Positions 1 to 25,848 of a stretch of 39,477 nucleotides of DNA are shown here, piece after piece. A program made the translations under genes and the position numbers. The notes beneath the pieces are model-generated. The model was given only the letters and a program-made list of their open reading frames with translations, searched no databases and was not told the origin of the DNA. The stretch covers positions 1-39,477 of the forward strand of contig WGMU01000026.1 of assembly GCA_016124895.1 (NCBI GenBank), given 5' to 3'. The DNA comes from a bacterium (lineage in GTDB: Bacteria; Planctomycetota; Planctomycetia; Planctomycetales; Planctomycetaceae). Every line of letters starts with the position of its first letter. Within the stretch, counting starts at the first letter, position 1.

Positions 1-204
1 CCTGCACGAGGCACGGCTACTGACGAGTGCATGGAAGCGTGAGTACAACGACGTGCGACCGCACAGCAGCCTGGGGTACGTGGCCCCGGCGGCGTTCGCG
101 CGAGCGTGTGCTGATTCCGTTCGGGCTGCGCCCTCACTCCATCAGCACACGCTCCCTACACCCCGACTCTCATAACAACCGGACCAAAAACCTGGGGCAG
201 GCCA
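1..204 (+). mobile_element. IS3-family insertion sequence, right end only
   Basis: The window opens inside an IS3-family element. The transposase C-terminus is followed by a short tail at 178-204 (ACCGGACCAAAAACC, then a G-rich stretch) that ends in CA at 203-204, as expected for the right terminal inverted repeat of IS3-type elements (TG...CA ends). The left end lies outside the window, so the inverted repeat pairing and target duplication cannot be checked. The element stops about 10 bases before the next start codon. Confidence 0.75.
2..175 (+). CDS. IS3-family transposase OrfB, C-terminal fragment (5' end outside window)
   Basis: Frame 2 is open from the window edge to TAA at 173-175 and encodes about 57 residues. 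It contains WKREYNDVRPHSSLGY followed by VAPAAFA. This is the hallmark end of the rve_3 part of DDE integrases of the IS3 family, where W-x-x-E/D-Y-N-x-x-R-P-H-S-S-L-G-Y lies a few residues after the catalytic Glu. The catalytic DDE residues themselves are upstream and not visible. Nothing in the visible part is broken, so the element may be intact. The family call is secure from the motif; the exact IS group is not determined. Confidence 0.88.
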   Translation: MHEARLLTSAWKREYNDVRPHSSLGYVAPAAFARACADSVRAAPSLHQHTLPTPRLS

Positions 205-213: not shown

Positions 214-1413
214 ATGATGAACGCGGTATTTCAGAGAATCTGTGAGTTTGGTTCGAGCATTGACTCGCCTGAAGGTTGGGAGTTTCTGCCGCCGGATGAC
301 CGGCTGATCGTCGTTGATCGTTCAGGTCATGAGATTCTTGAGTTGTTGAGAGGTGACTTTTCTGACACCGATCTGGTTGCAGCAAAAGTGATCACAGATG
401 TCACTGGCGTGGCCTCGCAGCTCAATCCGGCGCTGGATGCCAGCTCGCTTCTCGTGCAGAAGGTCATGCGCGGCGATCGGCTCATCGACTTGAGCACTCA
501 TCGCGGTAGCATCTGTTCGCCGTCGCCGCCTTGCTTCGACATTTCACGCGACGTCGAAACCGTTCGCAGGACCAGGTTGTGGCAGAAGAACCTTTTTGTC
601 GTCTTCTGCACGTCCGACCTATCGGTGTTGCGGAAGCTTGGCTTACCTGTAGTAGGCAGCGCCGGTCTCGGCTCACTCTCAGGCAAACAGCTTGTTGAGT
701 TGTTCGGCCCACGCGATGGTTTCGACTATGGCCCTGTTCGCCATGTCAGAAACTCGGCGCCGGTTTTCCGATGTGTCGAAAGGCTCGTTCTTGTCGGGTG
801 GTCCGTAACCGGCATGACGCTGCACGTGTCCGACACAGGGCGCGAAATCATAGATGCTCTGCATGCCGCAATTCGAGCATACTGTTTCCTCACAGACGAT
901 GTTCTCGTGTGGCAACCTTCTTCTCGCGATATCAGTCGATTTGAGGTCGGGCGGCGGGCCAGAGACACTGAGATGTTATGCGTATCATTTCGCCAGAGTC
1001 TGAAGAATTCGGTGAGGCCGATTCGGTACTTTGTTAAGCATGGTGCTCATCTGAGCCATAGTCTGTCGAGTGCCAGGGAGAGACTCAGAATCGAACTGGA
1101 AAAACACGGACGCAGTCCGTCGGCCTTCCTGACGCAGGCCATTCTTGAGTACCGGGAAGGGCTCGATTCAGAAATCGTAAAGCCGATTCGTGACGAAGCT
1201 GCCTCTCCGTTCGTTGATCCTTCAAAGCGACCACTTTTTCATTTGCTGGCCGATATTGTTGCTCAAATTCACAAGAATGATCCCCTCCTGTTGGAGGCAG
1301 GCAACGGCATGTCTGCACGTTCGAATGGTTCCAGTGGTAATGGGGTCGATGAACAGTGTCGTCTCTGGGACAAAGCGATTGCCGTGTATCGCGAGTTGAA
1401 ATCAACGCGTTAA
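214..1413 (+). CDS. hypothetical protein, first gene of a four-gene accessory cassette
   Basis: A 399-residue protein that I do not recognise with confidence. It has no signal peptide or membrane segment, so it is probably cytoplasmic. A segment at about residues 125-215 (NLFVVFCTSDLSVLRKLGLP, then GSAGLGSL and later LVLVGWSVTGM) loosely recalls the strand/turn pattern of Toprim-type domains in primase-like proteins of mobile elements. The acidic Toprim residues are not clear, so this is only a hint. The C-terminus has a Ser/Gly/Asn-rich stretch. The reading frame is open upstream into the IS3 end, so the original N-terminus may have been cut off. The start at 214 has AGGA six bases before it. 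Three compact genes follow in the same direction with 34-base to negative spacing, suggesting one transcript. Confidence 0.6.
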   Translation: MMNAVFQRICEFGSSIDSPEGWEFLPPDDRLIVVDRSGHEILELLRGDFSDTDLVAAKVITDVTGVASQLNPALDASSLLVQKVMRGDRLIDLSTHRGSICSPSPPCFDISRDVETVRRTRLWQKNLFVVFCTSDLSVLRKLGLPVVGSAGLGSLSGKQLVELFGPRDGFDYGPVRHVRNSAPVFRCVERLVLVGWSVTGMTLHVSDTGREIIDALHAAIRAYCFLTDDVLVWQPSSRDISRFEVGRRARDTEMLCVSFRQSLKNSVRPIRYFVKHGAHLSHSLSSARERLRIELEKHGRSPSAFLTQAILEYREGLDSEIVKPIRDEAASPFVDPSKRPLFHLLADIVAQIHKNDPLLLEAGNGMSARSNGSSGNGVDEQCRLWDKAIAVYRELKSTR

Positions 1414-1447
1414 GCGACGGTTCTGATTTTGCAAGGTAGTAGATCGA

Positions 1448-1948
1448 GTGAGAACGACAGTGAGAGACTTTGAGCACGATGAACCTGTTCGAAGTTCCTT
1501 GAGCAGCGGTCCCGACGAGATGGATTTCGTTTCCAGCGTCCGGATGCTGATCGAGTATGCACAACAGTCGGGCAGTCCCTCGGACGACGAATCGCGAATG
1601 TTTGCCTGGAATGAATGTCTACGAAATCTTCGGGAGGCGATCATCGAGCCATTGATGAAAGACGCACTGGCCTGTCCGCAACCGGCAGGCCGCGTTTTGC
1701 GGCTGGCCAATGCACAGCTCAGTCAGGTCTTTCATGTTCAGGCGCTTTCCATGATCGAGCGGATGACAAGACGAACCGCGCAACAGGGACTCGACCGGAG
1801 CAACGGATTCGCTGCGAATGAAGTCAGGGATCTGCTGAGTATTGTCGACCGAGTGATTCGATCATCGCAGTCGGCTCAGGAGACGGAGAACGAAAAGAGA
1901 TCATGGCGAACCAGACCGATAGCGATTTCAGCGACTGCCCTGGATTGA
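1448..1948 (+). CDS. hypothetical protein, second gene of the cassette
   Basis: A 166-residue, predominantly helical, charged protein without signal or membrane segments; no family recognised. The listed start is GTG at 1448, 34 bases after the previous stop. It lacks a strong Shine-Dalgarno, and ATG at 1520 (MDFVSSVRML) is a reasonable alternative. Its 3' end overlaps the next gene by 46 bases in another frame, typical of compact phage, plasmid or transposon cassettes. Its role can only be inferred from context as part of the 214-2687 unit. Confidence 0.55.
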   Translation: MRTTVRDFEHDEPVRSSLSSGPDEMDFVSSVRMLIEYAQQSGSPSDDESRMFAWNECLRNLREAIIEPLMKDALACPQPAGRVLRLANAQLSQVFHVQALSMIERMTRRTAQQGLDRSNGFAANEVRDLLSIVDRVIRSSQSAQETENEKRSWRTRPIAISATALD

Positions 1949-2334
1949 GTGGCCTTATGCTGGGCGATGAAGAGATGAATGCGCTCCGAACGCAGGGATT
2001 TGTCACCGCGGAACGGCGAGGGAGCAATCTCTACTTCAAACTACGCTTCCGTGTACATGGTAAGCAACGAGTCAGATACCTCGGCAGGGACGCAACGCTC
2101 GCTGATCGCATCCGTCAGGAACTGGACGCGATTCGTGCTCCAAAGCGAATTCTGCAGAACATGCACAGGGTAGATCAGCATGCGCGAAGGTTGCTTCGGC
2201 AGATGAAGAGCGAACTGAGCCCGATTCTGGCGGTTCACGGTTACCGATTTCATGGGATGGCGATCCGCAAGGCACGGCGGGACGAGTTGGCAGAAACCCG
2301 GAAAGAACGAACGCAAACTGAAAGAGATCAATGA
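1903..2334 (+). CDS. small basic protein, third gene of the cassette (possible nucleic-acid binding)
   Basis: A 143-residue protein rich in Arg and Lys. The stretch GSNLYFKLRFRVHGKQRVRY, followed by LGRDATLADRIRQELDAI, resembles the short basic domain of small proteins that accompany transposases and other mobile genes, with a beta-rich arginine segment followed by helices. A nucleic-acid-binding role is plausible but unproven. The start at 1903 (MANQTDSDF) has AAAGAGA just upstream. The gene overlaps its predecessor by 46 bases and its stop codon overlaps the next start (ATGA at 2331-2334), so translation is probably coupled. Confidence 0.6.
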   Translation: MANQTDSDFSDCPGLSGLMLGDEEMNALRTQGFVTAERRGSNLYFKLRFRVHGKQRVRYLGRDATLADRIRQELDAIRAPKRILQNMHRVDQHARRLLRQMKSELSPILAVHGYRFHGMAIRKARRDELAETRKERTQTERDQ

Positions 2335-2687
2335 TGAGTGAGCTGCGAGAAACTGAGATGTGTCGACCTGACGAAGTTGCCGCCGATCGGTCCGAGGCGG
2401 CAGTGCTGACTCCACACGAGCAGGCCCGCAGACAGCGAGTTGATGATTATCAGCTTCAGTCGCTGGAACTGAAAAACCCGCTTGCGGCCAACCTTGGTTC
2501 AATGAGTGGTAGTCTCATGCGGACCAGTCTGTGGATGGAAGAGGCAATTAGCGATGCGATGACCATGCAGCTTCCCACCGTAGAGGGGCTGCAACGCCTG
2601 TTACCAGCGATCGAGACTCAATTGAAGCTGACGCGTCAGGTCGATCGGCTTGCGCAGCTTTCGATTCGAATTTCGGAAGAGAAGTGA
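2331..2687 (+). CDS. hypothetical protein, fourth gene of the cassette
   Basis: A 118-residue helical protein, no family recognised. Residues about 45-115 (LELKNPLAANLGSMSGSLMR and the following two helices ending in AQLSIRISEEK) look like an extended helical or coiled-coil segment, as in small adaptor or oligomerisation proteins. The ATG at 2331 overlaps the preceding TGA as ATGA, and the upstream GAAAGAGA serves as a ribosome-binding site. It is the last gene of the cassette. Downstream DNA has no gene for about 400 bases. Confidence 0.6.
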   Translation: MMSELRETEMCRPDEVAADRSEAAVLTPHEQARRQRVDDYQLQSLELKNPLAANLGSMSGSLMRTSLWMEEAISDAMTMQLPTVEGLQRLLPAIETQLKLTRQVDRLAQLSIRISEEK

Positions 2688-2871
2688 CTCTGAAGCTGCG
2701 AAAAGGTGATGCGAGACTTGGGAGTACGGCGTTCAAAGCGAAGAATTGGCAAATTGATACCCATTGCCATCGCTGTTGTCGCCCGGTACGCACCAATAGT
2801 TGAGCCTAGGCCGACCGGATAATTGAAGCGGTCATAGGGTGATTGTTTTGTGCCAGACAATATCCCCGATC

Positions 2872-3003
2872 GATCCAATCTTTGTGTCTCAATCTGCGGT
2901 AAGATCCAGCCTTTGTGTCTCAATGGATCCAGACCTACCGTCTCTGGGCGTCGTAGGCCCTTGCACAGCAGGGCAATAAGATCCAACCTTTCTGTCTCCC
3001 ATC
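2872..3003 (+). repeat. three degenerate 22-base direct repeats, consensus GATCCAncCTTTgTGTCTC
   Basis: Copies lie at 2872-2893, 2903-2924 and 2980-3001. The first two are 31 bases apart and differ at two positions in 22. The third is 77 bases on and more diverged, and a remnant starting GATCCAGACC sits at 2926. They occupy the gap between the four-gene cassette and the sialidase-like gene (2688-3083), where I see no gene or clear terminator. They could be binding sites of a regulator or replication protein, or remnants of a tandem duplication. Confidence 0.55.
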
Positions 3004-3083
3004 AGGCCTGGTGGGAGAGATCAAGGCTCGATCTTTGATTCGTCGACGCGTTGCAGAATCAAATGCAGAGAGGTCTGACGAGA

Positions 3084-4319
3084 ATGATTGAGTACCGTTT
3101 GAGGTCACAGCTTCACGTCTGTCCGTGGTCGATCTGCGGTCTGGTTCTCCTGAGTGGAGTTCTTCTGACTCCGGCAACTCTGCATGGTGCGGAGCGGGCT
3201 GTCGCGTTGCAGTTTGAAAACCTGACACCCATCAACGGCACGGAGCAATGGGACTGGTGGCAGGCTCGTACGGCCAGCGTTCCTGGTCCTCAGCCGCTGT
3301 GGGTGACCACGATGTCCGAGACAGGCAAGACCGGGTCGCACAACTTCCACGATATCTATCAGTCACTGAGTCGCGATGCCGGCAGAACGTGGAGCCATCC
3401 GGTCATAATCCCGGCACTGAAACGCACTCTGCAGCCGGACAACTACGAGGTCGCACCGGGAGACCTGTGGCCTGTCTGGCACGCAAAGTCCGGCCATGTC
3501 CTGGCAACCGGCAAGACATTCAATTTTGAAGATGGAGAACGCGAGAACCGGCTGCGTGAGCGGGTCTCCTACGCGTCCATGAACCCGGCCACCGGAGAAT
3601 GGGGCGCGCTGAAGTTCGTCACCATGCCGGAGAAAGACCATTCGGGCCACACAATTACGGCTGCCAATGCCGGATGTAATCAGCGGTTCGATCTGGAAAA
3701 CGGCGAGATTCTGCTGCCCGTTCGGTACTGGCGGGATCCGAAAAAGCACAACTACACAACGATAGTGGTCCGCTGCTCGTACGACGGCGAGACTCTCAGC
3801 TACATCGAACACGGTTCCGAACTGACGATTCCCAAAGGCCGCGGGCTTTATGAACCGTCACTGACCCGCTTCCGCGGTCGATACTTTCTGACTCTGCGGG
3901 CCGATCATTCGGCGTTCGTCACCTCAGGCACTGACGGTATCCATTTCGATCCTGTTGAGGAATGGAAGTTCGACGCTGGCCAGCCACTGGGCAGCTACAA
4001 CACTCAGCAGCATTGGGTGACCGTTGGAGGTGGACTGTTTCTGATCTACACGCGAAAAGGCGCGGACAACGATCACATCATGCGCCACCGGGCTCCACTG
4101 TTTATCGGGCAGGTTGATCCGGACACGCTGCGAGTCATCCGCTCGACCGAACGCATTCTGATTCCGGAAAATCACGCAACTCTGGGGAATTCCGGCATTT
4201 GCCGGATCAGCGACAGCGAAACGCTGGTGACCTGCGGCGAGGGACTGCTCGGGCTCGGGAAACGCAAAGACGAAAACAACAAAGTGCTGTTTGTGAAGAT
4301 CTCCGGACCCCCTCAATAA
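3084..4319 (+). CDS. secreted sialidase-superfamily (BNR-like) protein
   Basis: A protein of about 411 residues with an N-terminal signal peptide: a basic start, then SICGLVLLSGVLLTPATLHG, with likely cleavage before AER. The body reads as a six-bladed sialidase-like propeller. It includes an Asp-box-like SLSRDAGRTWS near residue 90, further strands such as VVRCSYDGETLSYIEHGSEL, and the catalytic-side motif GLYEPSLTRFRGRYFLTLR. Members of this superfamily cleave or bind terminal sugars, and planctomycetes carry many of unknown substrate. I chose ATG 3084 because it starts just before the signal peptide; in-frame ATG 3063 and TTG 3051 are alternatives. The sulfatase follows after 32 bases, so the two are probably co-expressed for extracellular glycan breakdown. 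True sialidase activity is not established. Confidence 0.8.
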   Translation: MIEYRLRSQLHVCPWSICGLVLLSGVLLTPATLHGAERAVALQFENLTPINGTEQWDWWQARTASVPGPQPLWVTTMSETGKTGSHNFHDIYQSLSRDAGRTWSHPVIIPALKRTLQPDNYEVAPGDLWPVWHAKSGHVLATGKTFNFEDGERENRLRERVSYASMNPATGEWGALKFVTMPEKDHSGHTITAANAGCNQRFDLENGEILLPVRYWRDPKKHNYTTIVVRCSYDGETLSYIEHGSELTIPKGRGLYEPSLTRFRGRYFLTLRADHSAFVTSGTDGIHFDPVEEWKFDAGQPLGSYNTQQHWVTVGGGLFLIYTRKGADNDHIMRHRAPLFIGQVDPDTLRVIRSTERILIPENHATLGNSGICRISDSETLVTCGEGLLGLGKRKDENNKVLFVKISGPPQ

Positions 4320-5926: not shown

Positions 5927-6148
5927 ATATCGCCACTCCAATGCCGGAGCAGCGTCGCTGCGCTCCTCGATCCGGCGTGCCCCTTTGAACTTGCGACTAT
6001 CACGAGAAGGTATGCACGCCAGCGGGCCGAGGAGATTCAACGGACTTGGTCGACTTCGGTAGCGCAAACTTGTACGCTCTGCGATTATGGCCTGCCGTGT
6101 CGGTAAGGCAGATTACACTTATCTTTGGCAAGTCTACTGGTAGAGCAT

Positions 6149-6751
6149 ATGGCCAGACTGCCGATCTTCAGCTACAAAGACAACGACTTGACGCTCGCTA
6201 AGTGCGTTATACATAGCCAGCCTCGCCATTGGAGGACGGCTCTGTTTAGCATGATCATCACGATCTTTATGAGCGTGGTTCCCGCAGCGTCAGCAGCTCT
6301 CATTCTTTCGCTGGCCTCGTTTTCGTACAAGTGGACTGACTTCGTGAAAAATGGCGAAGTCGCAATATTCTGCGTAGGCCTACTGTCATCCTCAATTCTT
6401 CTGACAGCGAAGGAACTAAAGTCTCCGTTTGCGCATCGGCAACTGTTCTCATTCTTGGGACTTGCGGGAGTTATCCTAGCAATGGCCTGCTATGGCGGAC
6501 TATGTGTCGCAAGCGCTCAGGCTACATCAACCACGCAAACTTCGGGAACGACAACTGCACTTAATCTTGCACTGACGCTCTCTCTTATCCTCTACGGTTA
6601 CACCATCTTTCTCTCTGCTATCGTAACCTTCGTAGATGAGGTACGTGAGGATTTACCGGAGCAACTTATAACGGAAGCGCGTGAGGCGATGCAGGACAAT
6701 GCAGGCCTGCGAGAGCAGTTCCGTGGATTGAGCGAGGACAACGATGCCTAA
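6149..6751 (+). CDS. four-helix membrane protein paired with a DGQHR-domain protein
   Basis: A 200-residue protein with no cleavable signal. Hydrophobic segments lie at about residues 31-58, 70-88, 99-124 and 137-163, with a charged cytoplasmic-type N-terminus and an acidic helical tail (EVREDLPEQLITEAREAMQD). I do not recognise a family. Start ATG 6149 was chosen over TTG 6125. The stop overlaps the next start by eight bases (ATGCCTAA, 6744-6751), which strongly implies co-translation with the DGQHR gene. The cassette is visibly AT-richer than its surroundings, suggesting acquisition. By analogy to membrane-plus-sensor defence modules it may be an effector or anchor, which is inference only. 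Confidence 0.75.
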   Translation: MARLPIFSYKDNDLTLAKCVIHSQPRHWRTALFSMIITIFMSVVPAASAALILSLASFSYKWTDFVKNGEVAIFCVGLLSSSILLTAKELKSPFAHRQLFSFLGLAGVILAMACYGGLCVASAQATSTTQTSGTTTALNLALTLSLILYGYTIFLSAIVTFVDEVREDLPEQLITEAREAMQDNAGLREQFRGLSEDNDA

Positions 6752-7847
6752 GTCCACAGATCACATTGTCGCAGCATGCTTGGAAGTAGAACAGCCTTTG
6801 GGCACGTTTTATGTAGCTGTGCTTGAAGCAGTTGATGCTGTCTTCATCTCCAAGGCCGACATACGTCGAATTGAAGACGACGATATCGGAAGAGCTGTGG
6901 GCATTCAACGGCGAGTAAATCCCAAACGAGTGCAAGAGATTCGAGCTTATGTGCGCACTCTAGACGCGAGCTTTCCCACCAGCATCATCTTATCGGTCGG
7001 CAGTAGCCACGTCCGTATGGACAAGACTCGGAACGAACTACGAATCGCTCGTTTAGAGGACATAGCAGAAGTAATTGATGGGCAGCATCGCCTAAAAGGG
7101 CTTGAGGGATTCGACGGTACATTTCAGGTTACAGTGACGATCTTCGTTGATATGGATGTTCAAGATAAAGCAATGGTATTCTCGACCATAAACCTTGCAC
7201 AGACAAAAGTGAACAAATCGCTTGTTTATGATTTATACGAGTTTGCTAAGAGTCGAAGTCCGCAGAAGACATGCCATGACATTGCGAAGCTGATGAATTA
7301 CGAGGCCGGAAGCCCATTTTTTCATTCCATCAAAATTCTCGGGACTGCGAGCGAGGAAGGCTTGGAGACAATCACTCAGTCAGGCTTTGTCGAGCCAATT
7401 CTTGACATGATTACAAGAGATGCGCTTGCCGATCGCGACAGAATTCAGAGACGGGAGGAACTTGAGCGAGCAGCGGGTCGCGAAGCCAAACGGCTGATAT
7501 TCAGAAACTTTTTCATCGATCAGAATGACGGACACATCGCGAAAGTGATATGGAATTTCTTTTCCGCTGTCGAAAGGCGATGGAACGATGCTTGGACAAC
7601 TGTAGAACGCGGGAACGTTATCAATCGCAGCACAGGATACAGAGCGCTTGCACGATTCATGCGTGACGCATATGTACATTTAGGGGTGGAAATCCCGAAG
7701 ACGTCTGATTTCCTAGGGCTTCTTGATGGGATACCGCTTTCAGATGAAGACTTTACACCAGATAAGTTCAAGCCTGGAAGTAGCGGTGAATCTGAGCTGC
7801 GTAGACAGCTTCTATCGGGTGCAGACATTCCCGAGTACAGTCGGTGA
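6744..7847 (+). CDS. DGQHR-domain protein (DndB/DpdB-like superfamily)
   Basis: A 367-residue soluble protein. The signature DGQHR is at residues 112-116 within EDIAEVIDGQHRLKGLEGF, followed by VTIFVDMDVQDKAMVFSTIN. This is the conserved core of the DGQHR family, which includes DndB of DNA phosphorothioation and DpdB of 7-deazaguanine DNA modification, with a ParB/sulfiredoxin-like fold. The C-terminal part (INRSTGYRALARFMRDAY) matches the usual tail of standalone members. No Dnd or Dpd genes are present, so this is not one of those complete systems. It overlaps the membrane-protein gene by eight bases. Codon use is AT-rich: bases 7201-7260 contain only 21 G+C. It most likely belongs to an acquired anti-phage or anti-plasmid cassette. 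Family confident, role uncertain. Confidence 0.85.
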   Translation: MPKSTDHIVAACLEVEQPLGTFYVAVLEAVDAVFISKADIRRIEDDDIGRAVGIQRRVNPKRVQEIRAYVRTLDASFPTSIILSVGSSHVRMDKTRNELRIARLEDIAEVIDGQHRLKGLEGFDGTFQVTVTIFVDMDVQDKAMVFSTINLAQTKVNKSLVYDLYEFAKSRSPQKTCHDIAKLMNYEAGSPFFHSIKILGTASEEGLETITQSGFVEPILDMITRDALADRDRIQRREELERAAGREAKRLIFRNFFIDQNDGHIAKVIWNFFSAVERRWNDAWTTVERGNVINRSTGYRALARFMRDAYVHLGVEIPKTSDFLGLLDGIPLSDEDFTPDKFKPGSSGESELRRQLLSGADIPEYSR

Positions 7848-22491: not shown

Positions 22492-22614
22492 AGTATTCTG
22501 GTCCGAAGCTGTGGTTCGGAGTGAAAGGGTTGGTCGTGGCGGGAAGTGAGTTAATCTGTCTGGGTCAATCGAGAGTCCTCGCTGCCTGTCCCGCCTTCTG
22601 GAACTGCCCACCTG

Positions 22615-25848
<3,234 letters not shown>

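Follow-up and report, generated by a model that had tools for sequence, protein, structure and literature searches.

We investigated four closely packed genes, o1 to o4, at positions 214 to 2687 of a 39,477-nucleotide stretch of planctomycete DNA (hereafter the window), which is the entire contig C116 of the source genome G000 (8.1 Mb; G, C and L numbers denote genomes, contigs and loci). The genes lie between the end of an IS3-family insertion sequence (IS) and an array of short repeats, and, as developed below, they very probably form an accessory operon next to one end of a Tn7-like transposon, which carries a Ku gene and attaches at the 3' end of gyrB. The four genes are as follows.

214 to 1413, forward strand: gene 1 (o1), 399 amino acids (aa); very likely a degenerate DnaG-primase-like protein (about residues 1-281) with a C-terminal helical domain, from an AlphaFold2 model compared with VIA-align.
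1448 to 1948, forward strand: gene 2 (o2), 166 aa; by profile match, what is left of a second o1-type protein, namely its C-terminal domain without the N-terminal part.
1903 to 2334, forward strand: gene 3 (o3), 143 aa; a small basic protein and distant DUF6788-like relative, from profiles, model and isoelectric point (pI).
2331 to 2687, forward strand: gene 4 (o4), 118 aa; a small acidic protein by its pI, with tblastn relatives 3' of o3 in L010, L011, L012 and L033.

A 34-base gap separates o1 from o2, o2 and o3 overlap by 46 bases, and o3 and o4 have an ATGA in common. A preliminary description of this DNA had reported four genes with these positions, sizes and junctions beside an IS3 end, with no clear family and a basic third product, and all of this was borne out. 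Scans of o1-o4 against Pfam, NCBIfam and PHROGs gave no match above cut-off (best weak matches E 0.049, 0.14 and 0.23), the PADLOC defence models gave 0 families at E <= 0.1, and the pI was calculated as 10.6 for o3 and 4.9 for o4.

Downstream of o4, a repeat search detected direct repeats whose offsets recur at other loci, and which we take as putative transposase-binding sites of a transposon end. The end is composed of the following features.

2872 to 2893, forward strand: end site 1, putative TnsB-binding (repeat search, weight matrix).
2903 to 2924, forward strand: end site 2, at +31 (repeat search, weight matrix).
2926 to 2947, forward strand: end site 3, at +54, degenerate (weight matrix).
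2980 to 3001, forward strand: end site 4, at +108, the outermost (repeat search, weight matrix).
3004 to 3008, no strand: AGGCC, a 5-bp target duplication common to the gyrB-side end on contig C10 (flank comparison).
3009 to 3026, forward strand: TGGTGGGAGAGATCAAGG, similar to a 3-site end and putatively left behind by an earlier copy that had used this attachment site.

Site 1 starts 185 bases 3' of o4, and the exact 0/31/54/108 spacing is found in the window and in G328, G325, G308, G435 and G437. With a weight matrix built from the sites of the window, L010 and L033, which favours those three, the four-site score was 71.3 for the window and 71-98 for L010, L012, L014, L032 and L033, while no alternative spacing scored above -1.4 in the 352,010 bases that the nine loci comprise. 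A three-site pattern, allowing up to three mismatches, occurred at 17 places in 14 of the 170 genomes of the family, and the reversed control in 2 of 170. The 8 genomes with an o3 match and the 14 with an array overlap in 6 (hypergeometric P 2.5e-6, uncorrected for relatedness). An o1- or o3-type gene adjoins the array at 7 of the 17 places (G000, G328, G325, G308, G437, o3 only on C68 of G435, and an o1 fragment only in G333). A terminase-large-like gene takes this position at six others, namely G404, G303, C130 of G435, C322 of G436, C85 of G432, which is cut by the contig start, and C424 of G436, a 46-aa fragment. The stretches read at the remaining four (G428, G340, G433 and C4 of G435) hold neither operon type. 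By eye, a three-site-type end or a remnant of one lies about five bases beyond 10 of the 17 four-site ends, which suggests repeated insertion at one attachment site.

We then located the transposition genes. G000 has a single TnsB match and a single TniQ match, both on contig C65, where the gene order is Ku-TnsA-TnsB-TnsC-TniQ. TnsA (E 7.4e-11) and TniQ (E 2.5e-15) were recognised by Pfam; TnsB is 76% identical over its full length to the TnsB of G404, which has Mu-transpos_C and a weak rve match, and TnsC is 84% identical over 175 aa to an interrupted G404 copy, the second G404 copy being TniB (E 2e-27). The Ku gene (C65 21369-22241, L128; PF02735 E 2.2e-25) directly precedes tnsA. Ku stands directly before tnsA at seven of the eight tnsA places (C65, L090, L129, L130, L131, L132, L134 and L136), the eighth contig beginning inside tnsA; Pfam confirmed two of the seven, and the remaining five were recognised in tblastn comparisons with the Ku of C65, at 31-36% identity. 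Among the matches listed from the open-licence literature (titles, abstract starts and passages), none linked Ku with a Tn7-like transposon. Recurring cargo was also observed beside the tns genes (L127 7843-13678, L129 444-2126 and L132 3-1888); C65 has a ThiF/E1-like protein as well as an AAA protein that matches IetA models, and JAB-like and cysteine-rich proteins were recognised by eye among this cargo, which is perhaps a ubiquitin-like conjugation system.

C65 and the window are connected through the insertion sequence, since C65 ends in the 5' part of an IS3-family element and the window opens with the 3' part of one, as listed here.

1 to 204, forward strand: IS3-family 3' end, with the orfB C-terminus (rve_3 E 7.8e-10) and the right inverted repeat ...GGGGCAGGCCA.
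205 to 208, no strand: GGAT, the 4-bp IS3 target duplication, with the other copy at the IS flank on C65 (23245-23248).

The inverted repeats are TGGCCTGCCCC and GGGGCAGGCCA. Because this IS3 is multi-copy in the genome, its copies sharing sequence up to base 204-205, it is the flank match that carries the link between C65 and the window: GGAT is present on both sides, with a 1-in-256 chance for a random pair, and of the other copies, on C20, C62, C86 and C88, the two whose flanks were read (C62 and C86) differ. Just before the IS on C65 lies a MerR-like regulator gene (22551-23126; MerR_1 E 8.8e-6). L033 encodes a MerR protein with 44% identity to it over 186 aa, and next come a helix-turn-helix-like protein, here called X, and then o1, o3 and o4, with no IS between them. 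The GGAT link, the gene order of L033 and the AGGCC flank therefore place the window operon inside the element, where it reads away from the Ku-tnsABC-tniQ operon and towards the four-site end, behind the MerR-like regulator gene; no assembled contig spans this arrangement.

Between the MerR-like gene and the IS, the sequence TTGACA-17-CACAAT is overlapped by the palindrome TGTAAAGCCCA-CAA-TGGGCTTTACA, and these are likely the sigma-70-like promoter of the operon and its operator, respectively. The IS3 has thus inserted later, in the interval from this likely promoter to gene 1, and cuts the operon off from that promoter.

Next, the opposite end of the element was sought by its own pattern of three sites, spaced 21 and 22 apart, which matched 20 times, in 13 of the 17 genomes selected for this search, whereas its control had no match. 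We examined 13 of these places, excluding six that directly abut a four-site end and L164, which starts 10 bases from a contig edge. Of the 13, 11 adjoin the gyrB 3' terminus (11 of the 12 genomes concerned), and in all 8 readable cases the gyrB stop codon lies 17-18 nucleotides before the first site. The gene at the G000 partner end is GyrB by Pfam; this end was found on C10 and not on C65. The attachment site is seen at L147, L151, L157, L163 and others, many of them with signs of repeated insertion. Furthermore, the 5-bp flanks of the gyrB-side and four-site ends were equal within a genome in 5 of 11 cases (AGGCC in G000, ACGTG in G303, AGTTT in G404, ACAGG in G308 and AGTTG in G432) and between genomes in 0 of 173, and in G325, G308, G437 and G432 the tns genes and the partner end are on the same contig. 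TnsA-, TnsB-, TnsC- and TniQ-type genes, arrays of putative transposase sites of about 20 bp at both ends, a 5-bp duplication and an attachment site near a conserved gene are thus all present, as expected of a Tn7-like element. At L134 (6774-8578; C1097 of G308), the tnsB frame ends early and a three-site end follows directly, as in an internal-deletion copy. On C10 (L165 15056-20000, L166 1-1807), the Wadjet genes JetA, JetB and JetD were identified by PADLOC just inside the gyrB-side end, with a JetC-like gene between them by eye.

The comparison of G000 with G404 revealed how the operon varies within this framework. C65 (7581-20106) and C181 of G404 share three long blocks of 78-80% identical DNA, and shorter matches extend to 22166. 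On C181, the Ku, TnsA, TnsB, TnsC and TniQ genes lie on the far side of a terminase-like operon and an XRE regulator, and the slot there holds the XRE regulator, a zinc-ribbon-like protein (PF12760 E 0.0014, below cut-off), a 153-aa protein and the terminase-like protein, whereas that of G000 holds MerR and o1-o4. Since the flanks are related, the operons differ and both slots close with the same kind of four-site end, the slot is exchangeable between close relatives. The alternative operon, a terminase-large-like gene with small upstream genes, was observed at L090 (gene at 2457-3986), L091, L098 and L099, and the three loci scanned (L090, L091 and L099) matched GpA_ATPase with E 1.9e-16 to 5.5e-19.

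We also compared the window operon with its relatives. A search of 98 other genomes found relatives of o3 in 5, and a profile built from five sequences matched 8 of the 170 family genomes, G000 included, and 11 of 297 genomes at the class level, one of them with 11 copies. By tblastn and profiles, the order o1-o3-o4 is kept in L010, L011, L012 and L033, with o1 and o2 fused or as two genes, and only parts of the set are present in L013, L014 and L034. A single gene of 425-483 aa contains both the o1 and o2 parts in L010, L011, L012 and L014, and the window o2 matches the o1-family profile only at positions 289-417 of 418. As judged from these alignments, gene 2 is a left-over half gene: it corresponds to the C-terminal half of a longer protein related to gene 1. 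L011 has two full o1-type genes with X between them, so that the window operon, which lacks X and the first half of the second o1, is a shortened version. With these losses and the intervening IS3, the operon of G000 is probably silent or impaired. An o1 match in G123 was rejected, as it runs antisense through a gene resembling an acyl-CoA dehydrogenase by eye.

The small basic protein has more distant relatives as well. The o3-like genes of L010 and L057 match DUF6788 (PF20586) with E 0.0055 and 0.0086 (17.3 and 16.7 bits, below the curated cut-off of 27.2), and the window o3 gave no DUF6788 match in the Pfam scan. G629 carries eleven dispersed and diverged o3/DUF6788-like copies (L055-L065); in L055 and L057, two of the three copies printed in full, the o3-like gene is preceded by a gene of a 137-aa type. 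We considered these copies as an expansion of the same element and rejected this, as no array was present at any of the 11 loci. With an hhalign probability of 36%, there is no more than a hint that the o2 domain and the upstream 137-aa protein are homologous.

To characterise o1 further, we turned to predicted structure. In the library scans, o1 had no Toprim or DnaG family match by sequence, and the single match of its alignment in a PDB sequence search (E 0.41) was not used. An AlphaFold2 model was obtained from 7 sequences, and when the Foldseek top 1000 were re-aligned with VIA-align, the RNA-polymerase domains of DnaG led the list (Z 10.1, 9.9 and 9.5). The best match, 5vaz, covers 234 residues with Z 10.1 and a root-mean-square deviation (rmsd) of 5.7 A; eleven DnaG entries score Z 8.3-10.1 and extend from residue 1 to 281 or beyond, and Twinkle, T7 gp4 and T4 primases follow lower down. 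On the predicted model, o1 thus has the RNA-polymerase-domain fold with a Toprim core. At the Toprim motif positions, as placed on the alignment, the catalytic Glu is present in 0 of the 11 o1-family proteins (F in nine, Q or D in two) and the DxD in 0 of 11, the L010 protein alone keeping the first Asp. The o1 protein thus resembles a primase in its predicted fold but, having lost these acids, is very likely no primase.

The model of o3, with a predicted local distance difference test score (pLDDT) of 84.7, consists of a helix, three strands, a 48-residue helix and a hairpin; Foldseek gave no match at E <= 0.001 and VIA-align none above Z 4.7. A weak head-plus-long-helix likeness to XRCC4/XLF-type chains (Z up to 3.8, not significant) was observed, and a Ku gene lies in the same element. 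The likenesses to chains of XRCC4 or of end-joining complexes and to dsRNA-binding folds were noted and not used, as were eleven matches of the o3 alignment in the PDB sequence search (E 0.01-0.92, ribosomal L3 at the top).

These results also bear on the remaining suggestions of the preliminary description. Its weak Toprim-like segment in gene 1 corresponds to the DnaG-like predicted fold, and conservation of the genes as a set in planctomycetes, which it had proposed to look for, is seen in the ordered relatives of L010, L011, L012 and L033. Its comparison with a compact phage, plasmid or transposon module holds for the transposon, as an operon at a Tn7-like end; a plasmid or phage origin found no support, as o3, the only one of the four searched against plasmids, phages and viral contigs, had no match there. 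It had not noticed that gene 2 is half a gene, the repeat array at 2872-3001, the Tn7-like context or the later arrival of the IS3.

What the operon does for the element is a matter of graded likelihood. On balance, we favour the view that o1-o4 work with the transposition machinery in some role. As to which role, the end-proximal position, the replication-related fold and the failure to find a TnsE, in a scan where no positive control matched either, lead us to rank first a target-choice module comparable to TnsE, that is, an exchangeable second selector independent of TniQ, although this specific proposal is tentative. In such a scheme, the o1-o4 proteins would be replication-derived helpers that form a second target-choice pathway: recognition of a replication structure or of a replisome partner would fall to o1, the dead primase-like protein, and nucleic-acid binding to the basic o3; together they would bring in TnsC and thereby let the element board replicating mobile DNA, while TniQ would handle the safe gyrB site. 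More doubtful still, as a generalisation, is that this planctomycete Tn7-like family steers its second pathway with either a dead primase complex or a terminase-like complex in the same slot and brings its own Ku too, in which case both target choice and the repair of the donor break may be encoded by the element.

Ranked second, and somewhat less probable than the selector proposal, is that o1-o4 are ordinary cargo, for example an anti-phage or anti-plasmid system that senses replication intermediates and is unrelated to transposition. Tn7-like transposons are reported to carry much defence cargo (PMC8649781), the Wadjet genes sit just inside the gyrB-side end of G000, and o1-type genes are free of an array at 4 of 10 loci. 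Against passenger status stand the lack of any PADLOC match at E <= 0.1, the finding that at 13 of the 17 array places the slot beside the four-site end holds one of two operon types, whole or partial, and a single MerR-like regulator family that serves both types (L012 and L014 versus L099), which would be unusual for random cargo.

An unlikely third explanation is a replication module captured from a phage, plasmid or integrated element, which formerly replicated something and is now decaying baggage. It would account for the predicted primase-like fold of o1, the DUF3987 gene beside o1/o3 in G630, the truncated second o1, the missing X and the IS3-separated promoter of the window, and the broken genes in L012, L014 and L033. 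However, o3 has no match in the phages, plasmids and viral contigs searched, and the proteins remain recognisable beside the ends across genera with the catalytic acids gone in 11 of 11, which, as far as the alignments go, argues for a kept, non-catalytic role. Finally, a non-Tn7 element, such as a phage satellite whose packaging site is the array and whose nearby tns genes are coincidental, could draw on the terminase-large-like ATPase encoded beside the array and on a nearby gene of G303 that resembles a tyrosine recombinase by eye, but is highly improbable given partner ends at a fixed distance from gyrB, 5-bp flanks common to both ends, and tns genes on one contig with the partner end in four genomes.

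Several observations weigh against an element-borne selector of this kind. The element of G000 is split over three contigs, and C10 inward of the Wadjet genes carries ordinary-looking chromosomal genes by eye, so that the continuity of C10 with C65 and the integrity of the element are only putative. Six of the 11 gyrB-side ends have no matching flank, G328 and G437 being off by one base and G333, G428, G435 and G436 by more; in G325, which has an o1-type operon, the only detected three-site end is not beside gyrB, and its neighbours appear by eye to be chromosomal genes. The four array-free loci among the ten of the o1 family (L011, L013, L034 and L067, in the stretch read) imply that the proteins may live outside the element too, and L067 adjoins a DUF3987 gene. 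Some relatives are broken: an in-frame stop interrupts o1 at L033, and at L012 and L014 the X gene is divided between two frames. As for the fold, the o1 model has a pLDDT of 75 and, with Foldseek alone, matched nothing in the PDB at E <= 0.001; its alignments to DnaG show rmsd values of 5.3-8.6 A, and a helical-bundle chain, of an uninformative kind and matching the C-terminal part only, ties at Z 9.5. Lastly, the target choice and the TnsC contact are predictions, and the placing of the selector above cargo is correspondingly tentative.

Elsewhere in the window, an open reading frame at 6744-7847, with a DGQHR-like motif and which we take to be of DndB type, adjoins a small membrane-protein-like open reading frame at 6125-6751.

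In comparison with known systems, the element is of a known kind. Like Tn7 and Tn7-like transposons, it has TnsA-, TnsB-, TnsC/TniB- and TniQ-type genes, several putative transposase-binding sites per end, a 5-bp duplication and a fixed attachment site downstream of a housekeeping gene. Unlike them, it is attached at gyrB, carries Ku before tnsA, and has an end-proximal o1-o4 or terminase-like operon in place of a recognisable TnsE. No description of the gyrB attachment, the Ku gene or the pseudo-primase/terminase slot appeared among the matches listed from the open-licence literature (titles, abstract starts and passages). The gene parE is a paralogue of gyrB. In the passages available, the attachment genes named for Tn7-like elements are glmS, comM, yhiN and parE, the last as the site of Tn7017 (PMC11406308).

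According to the same passages, Tn7 uses TnsD (a TniQ protein) for a safe site and TnsE for replicating conjugal DNA, and TnsE is the only known selector family outside TniQ, with modulators such as TniM as possible further selectors (PMC11406308). In Tn6022-like elements, TnsE is reported to contain PriB-like domains and to be encoded close to the left end, at a distance from the core genes (PMC10293859). The o1-o4 operon resembles this TnsE in lying at an element end away from the core and in its replication-related ancestry, PriB-like for TnsE and primase-like for o1. It differs from TnsE, the selector for lagging strands and conjugal plasmids, in having four or more proteins, a primase-like o1 and no TnsE_C; Pfam gave no TnsE_C match in o1-o4, nor in any of 12 genomes (0/12), where no positive control matched either. 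TnsF of Tn6022, a tyrosine-recombinase-like target selector that works through TniQ by the passages seen (PMC10293859), would share with o1-o4 the nature of a non-TniQ addition to the TnsABC-TniQ core for target choice, if our inferred role for the operon holds; unlike TnsF, o1-o4 are not recombinase-like in the library scans, and TnsF acts through TniQ. With respect to DnaG-type primases, the predicted RNA-polymerase-domain fold of o1 is alike, while the motif Glu and the DxD are absent from the o1 family; the likeness of o3-type genes to DUF6788 is a weak one. If the operon steers transposition, target selectors would gain a new class and TnsC recruitment a new route, and if it is not a selector, it would still be a new, boundary-defined cargo slot with a conserved pseudo-primase. 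In either case, this is a family whose ends are defined, which attaches at gyrB and carries Ku, and whose exchangeable operon occupies the position where a second selector would be expected.

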